36,308 nucleotides of DNA, from contig JALORQ010000009.1 in NCBI GenBank assembly GCA_025458805.1, forward strand, positions 1 through 36,308, in the 5' to 3' direction. Below are positions 16,001-19,905 of this stretch, piece after piece. The DNA is from Rubrivivax sp. GTDB lineage: Bacteria; Pseudomonadota; Gammaproteobacteria; Burkholderiales; Burkholderiaceae_C. The translations under genes were made by a program, and so were the position numbers. Numbering within the stretch: the stretch's first letter is position 1; every line of letters begins with the position of its first letter. The notes beneath the pieces are model-generated. The model was not told the origin of the DNA. It made no database searches and saw only the letters and a program-made list of their open reading frames with translations.

Positions 16001-16092
16001 GGAAGCGGCCGGACGCCTTCGCCGGCCCCTCGGTCGGTCGGGTATGGCGCGCACCGTCGCTCCCGCGACGGCCGATCTGCTAGCGTCCTCGG

Positions 16093-16545
16093 GTGGCAGA
16101 GAGCTTCAGCGCATCCGCCTTCCGGGGCCTGCCCGGCATCGCCGAGCATCCTTGGGCCTACCCGGCGCTCGAGTCGGTGCACATCGCCGGCATCGCGCTG
16201 CTGGTCGGCAACGTGGTGCTCGTCGAGCTGCGCGTCTGGGGACTGGGGGCGGCGCTGCCGGTGCGGCCGCTGGCGCGGCTCGCGCTGGCGGTGGCGATGG
16301 CCGGTTTCGGCATCGTGGTCGCCAGCGGGCTGCTGATGTTCGCCGCCGCGCCGGCCGAGCTGCTCGCCAACCGCGTCTTCGTCGTGAAGATGGGGCTGGT
16401 GCTGCTGGCGGGCCTCAACGCGGCGTGGTTCCATGCGCGCGACGGGCTCGGCGCGGCCGACGGACTGGCGCGCGCGCAGATGCTGCTGTCGGCCGCGCTG
16501 TGGCTGGCCGTGATCGCCTGCGGCCGCTGGATCGGCTATGTGTGA
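16093..16545 (+). CDS. Small integral membrane protein (DUF6644-like)
   Basis: GTG start. Four hydrophobic helices; HPWAYPALESVHIAGIALLVGNVVLVELRVWGLG...VFVVKMGLVLLAGLNAAWFH. Confidence 0.65.
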   Translation: MAESFSASAFRGLPGIAEHPWAYPALESVHIAGIALLVGNVVLVELRVWGLGAALPVRPLARLALAVAMAGFGIVVASGLLMFAAAPAELLANRVFVVKMGLVLLAGLNAAWFHARDGLGAADGLARAQMLLSAALWLAVIACGRWIGYV

Positions 16546-16587
16546 CTTCGACCCGCGTCTCGCGCCGCACCGCGGCGCGTCTGGAGG

Positions 16588-17067
16588 ATGACCATGCATC
16601 GACGTCTCTTGCTGGCCGGCGGCGCGCTGCTCGCGCTGCGCCCGGCCTTCGCGCACCACGGCTGGAGCAGCTTCGACCAGTCGCAGCCGATCTACCTCGA
16701 GGGCACGGCGCGCAACGTGGCGTGGCGCAACCCGCACGCCGAACTGGTCCTCGAACTGCCTGCCGAACCCCGCCTGCCGGCGGACCTCGGCGCCCGCACG
16801 CCCCCGGCGCAGACGGCGCCGGTCGACGGCCGCGCGCTGCTCGCGCGGGCGCGGCTGCCCCAGCGCAGCGACAAGCGCTGGCAGGTCGAGCTGGCGCCGC
16901 TGACGCGGATGGAGGCCTGGAAGGTGCCGCAGATCCGCGACGGCGACACGGTGGCGGTGCTCGGATTCACGTTCGCCGGCGAGCGGGGCGACGCGGTGCT
17001 GCGCGCCGAGTACCTGTTCATCGGCGGCACGATCTACGGCCTGCGGTCGTCGCCCGCGACGTCGTAG
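16588..17067 (+). CDS. Exported DUF6152-like protein
   Basis: Signal-peptide-like MTMHRRLLLAGGALLALRPAFAHHGWSSFDQSQPIYLEGTARNVAWRNPHAELVLEL.... Confidence 0.7.
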   Translation: MTMHRRLLLAGGALLALRPAFAHHGWSSFDQSQPIYLEGTARNVAWRNPHAELVLELPAEPRLPADLGARTPPAQTAPVDGRALLARARLPQRSDKRWQVELAPLTRMEAWKVPQIRDGDTVAVLGFTFAGERGDAVLRAEYLFIGGTIYGLRSSPATS

Positions 17068-17162
17068 CGCGGTCTCGAGCTCGAGCGCGCGCCGGCCGCG
17101 CGGCATGTCACGCAGCTGCCATCGTCACGGCGCACACTGCGGGGCCCCGGAGGAGGCTGGCG

Positions 17163-19034
17163 GTGCGCGACGAACCTGCGCTTAGACACGACGCCTGGGC
17201 CGTCGACGAGGCGCTGCGCCTGATCGACGAGTTGTCGTCGCTGCGCACGGCGATGCTCGAGCACGAGGCGGCGCTCGCGCCGCTGATGCGCAGCGTCGAG
17301 GCCGCGCACGCCGCGGGCGCCGCGAACCTGGCCCACTACCTCGCGATGCGTCGCCACGACCTGCGCCCGCTGCAGGAGCGGCTGGCGCGGCTGGGGCTGT
17401 CGTCGCTCGGGCGCGCCGAGACGCATGCCCTCGCTGCGGTCGACAAGGTGCTGGGGGTGCTGCACCGTCTCGCAGGCCGGAGCTGGCGGCCGCTGCAGGC
17501 GCAGGAGCCGAGCGGCTACGGGCGTGGCGCCGCGGCGCTCGCACGGCATGCCGACGCGCTGCTCGGCGCGTCGCCGGCCGAGCGGCGCACGCGCATCATG
17601 GTCACGCTGCCGTCGCAGGCGGCGTCCGACGACGCGCTCGTCGACGCGCTGGTCGGCGCGGGGATGGACATCGCCCGCGTCAACTGCGCGCACGACGACC
17701 CCGGCGCATGGGCGGCGATGGCCGCGCGCGTGCGCCGCAGCGGGCGCCGGCTCGGCCGCACCGTCCGCGTGCTGATGGACCTCGGCGGCCCCAAGCTGCG
17801 CACGGGCCCGTTCGAGACCGGCGAGCCCGTGGTCAAGCTGCGGCCGCGGCGCGACGAGAGGGGCCGCGTCGTCGAGCCGGCGCGCCTGGGTCTCGTGCCG
17901 GCGGGCAGCGGCCGCGCGGTGGACGGCGCCGACCTGACGCTGGGTGCCGATGCGCTGTGGCTGGCGGCACTCGACGACGACGACGAGGTCGAGCTGAGCG
18001 ACGCCCGCGGCGCGCGACGCCGCTATGCCGTCGCGCGCAGCCGGCGCGACGAGGTGCTGCTCGAAGGGCGGCAAACCGCCTACCTCACCTCCGAGACGCG
18101 GCTGGCGCTGCGGCGCCGCAGTGCCGCGCCGCCGTCCGAGACGCGGTTGTGCGACCTGCCGCCGCCGCCGCCGCGCATCCTGGTGCAGCGGGGCGACCGC
18201 GTGCGCCTCGTGGCCACCGGCCGCGGCCGCGCCGCCTCGGAAGGACGTCCAGCGATCGTCGTCTGCACGCTGCCCGAGGCGCTGGCCGCGGTGCGTGCCG
18301 GCGAGCGCATCGCCTTCGACGATGGCCGCATCGGCGGCGTGGTGCGCCGCCGCTCGCGCCACGGCATCGAGGTCGAGATCACGCAGGCGCGCGACGGCGG
18401 CGAGTGGCTGGGCGCCGACAAGGGCATCAACCTGCCCGACACGCGGCTGGACCTGCCGGCCCTCACCGACAAGGACCTGGCCGACCTCGCTGCCGTCGCG
18501 CGCCACGCCGACCTCGTCGGCCTCTCGTTCGCCCAGTCGGCCGCCGACGTGCAGGCGTTGCAGCGCGCGCTCGACGGCGCCGGGGCACCCGGCCTGGGCG
18601 TCGTGCTGAAGATCGAGACGCGGCGCGGCTTCGAGCACCTGCCCGAGATGCTGTTCGCGGCGATGGCGGGGCCGGCCGCCGGCGTCATGATCGCGCGCGG
18701 CGACCTGGCGGTCGAGTGCGGATACGAGCGGCTCGCCGAGGTCCAGGAAGAAATCCTCTGGGCCTGCGAGGCAGCTCACCTGCCGGTGATCTGGGCCACG
18801 CAGGTGCTGGAGACGCTGGCGCGCACCGGGCGCCCGTCGCGCGCCGAGATCACCGACGCGGCGATGGGCGAGCGCGCCGAGTGCGTGATGCTCAACAAGG
18901 GCCCGCACATCGTCGACGCGATGCGCACGCTCGACGACATCCTGCGTCGCATGCAGACGCACCAGCAGAAGAAGCGGCCGCTTCTGCGCGCGCTGCGCGC
19001 CTGGACCCGGGCCCCGGAGGTGACCGCCGTCTGA
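17163..19034 (+). CDS. Divergent pyruvate-kinase-like protein with N-terminal extension
   Basis: GTG start in the frame of the 16044..19034 ORF. RIMVTLPSQAASDDALVDALVGAGMDIARVNCAHDD, VRVLMDLGGPKLRTGPF, LKIETRRGFEHLPEML, GVMIARGDLAVECGYERLAEVQEEILWACEAAHLPVIWATQVLETLARTGRPSRAEITDAAMG resemble the pyruvate kinase barrel. Confidence 0.82.
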   Translation: MRDEPALRHDAWAVDEALRLIDELSSLRTAMLEHEAALAPLMRSVEAAHAAGAANLAHYLAMRRHDLRPLQERLARLGLSSLGRAETHALAAVDKVLGVLHRLAGRSWRPLQAQEPSGYGRGAAALARHADALLGASPAERRTRIMVTLPSQAASDDALVDALVGAGMDIARVNCAHDDPGAWAAMAARVRRSGRRLGRTVRVLMDLGGPKLRTGPFETGEPVVKLRPRRDERGRVVEPARLGLVPAGSGRAVDGADLTLGADALWLAALDDDDEVELSDARGARRRYAVARSRRDEVLLEGRQTAYLTSETRLALRRRSAAPPSETRLCDLPPPPPRILVQRGDRVRLVATGRGRAASEGRPAIVVCTLPEALAAVRAGERIAFDDGRIGGVVRRRSRHGIEVEITQARDGGEWLGADKGINLPDTRLDLPALTDKDLADLAAVARHADLVGLSFAQSAADVQALQRALDGAGAPGLGVVLKIETRRGFEHLPEMLFAAMAGPAAGVMIARGDLAVECGYERLAEVQEEILWACEAAHLPVIWATQVLETLARTGRPSRAEITDAAMGERAECVMLNKGPHIVDAMRTLDDILRRMQTHQQKKRPLLRALRAWTRAPEVTAV

Positions 19035-19050
19035 CGGCAGCCGCTGCCGG

Positions 19051-19905
19051 TCAGACCGGTCCGGCGGGGTGACTGTCGCCGATCGAAGACCCCGGGGCCT
19101 GCAGCGAGCCGGCGTCGGCCGGCGCGGCGCGCACGCAGTTGCCACCGGCCTGCCGGGCGGCGAGCACGGCCAGCGTCGCCTCGTCCAGCAGCCCCTGCAG
19201 GCCGGGCTGGGCCGGCCGCAGCGTGGCGACCCCGATGCTGACGCTGGCGCGCAGCGGGCCGTCAGGCGCGTCGACCTGCAACTGCTCGAGCCCTTCGCGG
19301 ATGCGCTCGGCGGCATCGAGCGCACCGGTCGGGTCGGCGTGGGCAAGAAACACGGCGAGCTGGCCCTCGCCCCATGCGGAGAGCGCGTCGCCGCCGCGCA
19401 GCGTCTGGCGCGCGTGCCGCGCCATGGCCTCGACCAGCGCGGCAAGGGCGGCCGCGCCGCGCGTCTCGCCCAGGCGATGGTGGCGGTCGACCTCGACGAT
19501 CAGCACCGCGGCGCCGTGCCCGTAGCGGCGCGCGCGCGACCATTCGCGTTCGACGAGCGCGAGGAACGCCGCGCGTTCGTCGCTGCGGCGAACGGGTGCC
19601 TCGAGCTCGCCGATGCGCGCCAGCTGCCAACGGGCCCGGCGCGCGAGGTGCAGGGCCGCACCGAGCGGCGGCAAAGCGGCGACCAACGCCGCCGCAGCCG
19701 CAGCGACGGACGGCGGCCAGCCCAGGCCGTCTGTCGCGACGACGGCGAGCCCGGCGGCCAGCGCGGCCAGTGCCGAAGCCGCGACGAGGACGAGCAAGCC
19801 GGCCCGCCCTGGCCAGGTCGCCGCGGCGGCCGCCGCCGCGGGCGATCCGGCGGCCCGCGCCACGGCAGCCGCGGCGGAGGGGTCGGGCGAAGGCAACGGA
19901 CTCAT
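19051..19905 (-). CDS. Membrane-anchored GGDEF-family protein with degenerate signature
   Basis: Two hydrophobic segments, then FLALVEREWSRARRYGHGAAVLIVEVDRHHRLGETRG...LRGGDALSAWGEGQLAVFLAHADPTGALDAAERIREGLEQ...RASVSIGVATLRPAQPGLQGLLDEATLAVLAARQAGGNCVRA. The fold is recognisable but the GGDEF position reads GEGQL. Confidence 0.78.
   Translation of the reverse strand: MSPLPSPDPSAAAAVARAAGSPAAAAAAATWPGRAGLLVLVAASALAALAAGLAVVATDGLGWPPSVAAAAAALVAALPPLGAALHLARRARWQLARIGELEAPVRRSDERAAFLALVEREWSRARRYGHGAAVLIVEVDRHHRLGETRGAAALAALVEAMARHARQTLRGGDALSAWGEGQLAVFLAHADPTGALDAAERIREGLEQLQVDAPDGPLRASVSIGVATLRPAQPGLQGLLDEATLAVLAARQAGGNCVRAAPADAGSLQAPGSSIGDSHPAGPV

Follow-up and report, generated by a model that had tools for sequence, protein, structure and literature searches.

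The pyruvate kinase locus and its neighbours

The window analysed here is the whole stretch of 36,308 nt from Rubrivivax sp. (contig JALORQ010000009.1), in which positions 17163–19034 (+) give an uninterrupted translation of 623 aa followed by a stop. We annotate this frame as the gene of a Pyk2-type (NF011314/PRK14725) pyruvate kinase (PK) with a GTG start. A Shine-Dalgarno-like ribosome site, GGAGGAGG, read directly from the sequence, is located at 17149–17156 (+), 6 nt 5′ of the GTG, and the N-terminus set by this codon agrees with the starts of relatives and with the NF011314 profile. The kinase frame stays open 5′ to 16044, an extension that we rejected as a high-GC artefact running over two genes of the same strand, DUF6644 (16093–16545, +) and DUF6152 (16588–17067, +), the latter 95 nt 5′ of the kinase. 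High GC gives rise here to long spurious frames at 17034–19445 (−) and 16044–17162 (+), overlapping or extending the kinase gene.

The DUF6152 gene flanks the kinase gene on one side and a GGDEF gene on the other. A comparison of shared ORFs at 27 loci returned no widely recurring neighbour across genera, and its largest ORF groups simply mirror the kinase gene on the antisense strand. An LDH gene adjoins the Pyk2-type gene in most of the Corynebacterium loci examined.

Domain architecture and active site

All PK barrel motifs quoted in a preliminary description of this sequence are present, and the PK barrel (PF00224, 175 bits) is the sole Pfam match in the window protein. The AlphaFold2 model, for which 21 family sequences served as input, reaches a mean pLDDT of 88 and a pTM of 0.81, and its top Foldseek matches in the PDB are all pyruvate kinases. 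Residues 1–139 (17163–17579, +) make up an N-terminal helical domain, delimited by alignment and AlphaFold2 models and all-helical in the model at pLDDT mostly 80–95. The (β/α)8 barrel, or A domain, comes in two parts: residues 140–218 (17580–17816, +; Pfam and alignment), containing NCAHD and DLGGPKLRTG, and residues 361–607 (18243–18983, +), containing DDG, KIE, ARGD, ATQ, MLNKG and a last helix at 583–607. Between both parts lies an enlarged, beta-rich B domain or lid, residues 219–360 (17817–18242, +), which exceeds its canonical counterpart by about 120 residues; the span from GPKxR to DDG measures 177 residues, whereas 20 canonical PKs have a median of 55 (55–66). With 18% Arg and 8% Pro, the stretch 219–360 is nevertheless predicted to be ordered and beta-rich rather than a loose Arg/Pro linker. 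A short low-confidence tail, residues 608–623 (18984–19031, +), is found where the C-terminal allosteric domain would be. As 48 residues follow MLN in the window protein and a median of 166 follow MLS in 20 canonical PKs, the C domain is absent. The helical extension of about 140 aa, the long Arg/Pro-rich middle and the missing allosteric domain, all proposed beforehand from the letters, are thus borne out.

When the protein is aligned together with canonical PKs, window residues Arg172, Asn174, His177, Asp206, Arg213, Lys483, Glu485, Asp514 and Thr546 prove to be kept. Their rabbit counterparts we take to be, in the same order, Arg72, Asn74, His77, Asp112, Arg119, Lys269, Glu271, Asp295 and Thr327. 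Rabbit numbering of positions 113–120 follows PMC8835810, that of the other positions the usage common for the family. The same alignment confirms two of the departures singled out in the preliminary description: ARVNCAHD for MRLNFSHG corresponds to a real change from NFSHG to NCAHD, with Ser76 replaced by Ala, and the MLS-x-ETA segment is replaced through a four-residue deletion (the SGET loop) that turns MLSGETA into MLNK. Both changes are seen almost throughout the Pyk2-type family. The Arg in KIETRRG, also offered as diagnostic, did not hold up: canonical PKs vary at that position too (KIERSEA, KLEKPEA), Corynebacterium glutamicum Pyk2 reads KIETIPG, and we rejected the residue as a sign of lost function.

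NCAHD, Leu113/Lys117 and MLNKG are shared across the family, and since C. glutamicum Pyk2 has them too, the divergent motifs do not abolish PK activity. Residues for metal and substrate are conserved across phyla. At the positions of the K+ signature, the window protein has Leu at 113, Gly at 114, Lys at 117 (Lys211) and Thr at 120, a mixture of both signatures; K+-independent PKs are described by L113/Q114/K117/(L,I,V)120 (PMC8835810). At 114, C. glutamicum Pyk2 has Ala. Every characterised Lys117 PK was stated to be K+-independent (PMC5501398). C. glutamicum Pyk2 combines Lys117 and Leu113, yet a need for K+ and a response to FBP, not AMP, were reported for it; either the Lys117 rule has an exception or that assay was run without ionic-strength control.

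Family membership, spread and the canonical isozyme

The window protein scores 758.2 bits against the NF011314/PRK14725 equivalog "pyruvate kinase" (cut-off 642), with residues 13–616 matching profile positions 11–612 of 614, and has the traits of that family: a helical N-domain of 120–140 aa, no C domain and MLNKG for MLSGETA. It stays below the cut-offs of all canonical PK models it matches, among them TIGR01064 (209 bits, cut-off 306). Judged by profile and alignment, it is a full-length member of a curated, already characterised family. The name "PRK14725" was not found in the literature searched.

Experimental characterisation within the family comes from C. glutamicum Pyk2 (NCgl2809), with a published mass of 67,572 Da (67.6 kDa) and an LDH gene beside pyk2 (PMC5112673). 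We identify our locus L065 with it on the basis of its calculated mass of 67,571 Da, its 619 aa and its adjacent LDH gene (locus GC 53.8%). L065 aligns with the window protein from end to end (40% identity, 630 columns, E 2e-134), and among 14 control genomes a match at the cut-off of E ≤ 1e-150 came from C. glutamicum alone. Pyk2 has a 120-aa N-terminal extension, an A domain at 128–213 and 346–606 and no C domain; it turns PEP and ADP into pyruvate and ATP and, on ribose, complements a strain deleted for both pyk1 and pyk2 (PMC5112673). Its kcat is 5.6/s and its S0.5(PEP) 4.6 mM, it needs Mn2+ and a monovalent cation, with a K+ need reported, it is activated by FBP and inhibited by ATP, it elutes as a 431-kDa hexamer and it is induced 14-fold by oxygen deprivation (PMC5112673).

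A tree of 57 proteins over 366 columns separates canonical from Pyk2-type PKs by a 100/100 branch, C. glutamicum Pyk2 falling on the Pyk2-type side, and places the window protein inside the Pyk2-type clade with Rubrivivax, Piscinibacter and other Burkholderiales. This is largely the outcome that the preliminary description had named as refuting its reading, a place in a PK clade with a characterised member of this very architecture, PK activity of the window protein itself being predicted. An AU test rejected the long-lid members as one clade, so lid length changed more than once. Short-lid sisters, proteins of ~500–540 aa, are found in the phyla of the window, Stieleria and Muricauda; the two that were scored fall short of the NF011314 cut-off, at 530 and 583 bits.

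Clear members were found in 6 of 121 genomes of the window's own taxonomic family, 10 of 349 of its phylum and 83 of 242 of the genus of Corynebacterium sputi, as well as in 23 of 246 and 23 of 248 genomes of the Stieleria and Muricauda phyla, respectively, where some are of the short-lid type. No Pyk2-type gene was found in a genome of the same genus as the window (G095). The same architecture and length recur in Pseudomonadota, Actinomycetota, Planctomycetota, Bacteroidota, Nitrospirota and Armatimonadota. This patchy spread, together with a sequence from a genome of the window's family (G027) whose closest company in the tree is planctomycete and Nitrospira sequences, hints at horizontal transfer or at extensive loss. 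One Nitrospira genome (G123) carries two Pyk2-type genes and two canonical PKs; one of its loci (L019) reads garbled after ATQVLE (QGVACLSWQGFPGLG), as if frameshifted, and the cause is probably an error in sequencing or assembly.

Whether the same genome also encodes a canonical pyk, a point raised at the outset, is answered by a 363-bit gene on another contig (G000:C142:3034-4011). Of 15 further genomes examined, 14 likewise had a canonical pyk, which makes the Pyk2-type kinase an accessory isozyme. In a Marinobacter MAG of 3.7 Mb (G126, locus L017) the Pyk2-type kinase stands alone, no canonical pyk being found. We discarded the idea of a genus living on the Pyk2-type enzyme alone, given that this MAG is probably incomplete and that 39 of 40 other Marinobacter genomes have the canonical gene.

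Function, regulation and comparison with known pyruvate kinases

The product of the window gene is very probably a genuine second pyruvate kinase, Pyk2-like in type and mechanism and auxiliary in role. The enzyme would transfer the phosphate of PEP to ADP in the cleft between barrel and enlarged lid, yielding pyruvate and ATP. The conserved Glu485 and Asp514 would hold a divalent metal, and Lys211 is at the place of the lysine that substitutes for K+ in K+-independent PKs. The enzyme would work as a conditionally used isozyme beside the canonical PK of its host. By analogy, we infer that it behaves like C. glutamicum Pyk2 in activity, FBP and ATP response, hexamer formation and induction without oxygen, though FBP activation could be lineage-specific. 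Against the analogy stand an identity of only 40% and an SSLGR motif in the window N-domain that Pyk2 has not kept.

The slow turnover and weak PEP affinity of C. glutamicum Pyk2 imply that PEP/ADP may not be the sole physiological reaction. Taken further, this leads to a PK fold whose main reaction has shifted to another phosphate donor or acceptor, PEP/ADP being a side activity. The exchange of Ser76 for Ala, the loss of the four SGET residues, the large altered lid, the low kcat and high S0.5(PEP) of the homologue, and the presence of a canonical PK alongside, in its own genome and most others checked, would all suit such a shift. Nonetheless, catalytic Arg172, Asn174, Asp206, Arg213, Lys483, Glu485, Asp514 and Thr546 are kept and C. 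glutamicum Pyk2 sustains growth when it is the only PK, so we hold a shifted reaction to be improbable. The preliminary description had suggested a subfamily with altered substrate or regulation, of which the distinct subfamily and the regulation stand, the latter because the C domain is missing and FBP nonetheless activates the characterised homologue. An altered substrate finds no such backing, with core catalytic positions kept and a Pyk2 of the same architecture acting as a pyruvate kinase in vitro and in vivo.

Less probable still is a regulatory pseudoenzyme that partners the canonical PK instead of catalysing: diverged motifs and co-occurrence with a canonical PK could be read in this way, but the metal and substrate residues are conserved across phyla and the homologue is catalytic. 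The draft state of the genome (274 contigs) and the frame open upstream to 16044 might also point to a truncated or mis-assembled canonical PK joined to an unrelated upstream frame. We give this a negligible chance, since architecture and length are the same in six phyla and the canonical pyk is on another contig; the conserved full-length alignment already refutes it.

In pyruvate kinase, a textbook case of allostery, control is attributed to the C domain, which in other PKs contributes to tetramer assembly and houses the effector site. The Pyk2 family, present in several bacterial phyla, lacks this domain but retains the reaction and, in the single member assayed, control by FBP. The type is already curated and biochemically characterised, and what the window gene adds is a second PK isozyme in a Burkholderiales genome. 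For the genuine second kinase favoured here, oligomer assembly and effector response would most likely be handled by the family-specific N-terminal helical domain and/or the enlarged lid. Short-lid sisters lack the latter, making it the less likely common answer.

The N-domain carries the signature A-x-N-L-x-H-Y-x-x-x-R-x-x-D-x-R-x-x-Q-x-x-L-x-x-x-G-x-x-x-L-x-x-x-E, with a conserved core of A53-N55-L56-(H58-Y59)-R63-D66-R68-Q71-L74-G78-L82-E86. Searches with 21 members gave no Pfam match beyond chance for it; profile searches of the PDB gave only short, unconvincing matches to designed TIM barrels, and Foldseek found no PDB relative (best E 3.0). Scans of 17 and 299 genomes (in the second, at most 13 candidates per genome were scored) returned no stand-alone or otherwise fused N-domain, every match falling within an open frame that has room for the fused kinase as well. 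This strict coupling to a PK devoid of the C domain, along with the finding that the C. glutamicum homologue is hexameric and responds to FBP as an activator, makes the N-domain a natural candidate for the assembly or effector role, and it probably stands in for the missing domain. We can only tentatively, and with more doubt than conviction, go on to regard it as a new allosteric/assembly module that replaced the C domain in a deep second PK lineage, FBP control having evolved twice in different domains.

Set against known systems, the canonical PK of its own genome (TIGR01064, C142) shares with the window protein the barrel, the core catalytic residues and Lys at 117, whereas it differs in having a C domain (166 residues after MLS), a 55-residue B span, NFSHG and MLSAETA, and no N-terminal domain. 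The 352-aa pyruvate kinase model NF005234/PRK06739 (109 bits, cut-off 564) is alike in a length that leaves no room for a C domain, but unlike the window protein it is also too short for the N-domain. The short-lid sisters (L101–L109 and L030) have the N-domain, the MLNKG loop and no C domain, as the window protein does, and differ in a near-canonical B span of 61–82 residues, compared to about 180 in the window type. C. glutamicum Pyk2 comes closest, with an N-terminal extension, an enlarged B region, no C domain, the common motifs NCAHD, DLxGPKxRTG, KIET and MLNKGPHI, and a place as second isozyme beside a canonical PK; it differs in lacking the SSLGR motif of the window N-domain and in its surroundings, ldhA adjoining the Corynebacterium gene and the DUF6152 and GGDEF genes enclosing that of the window.
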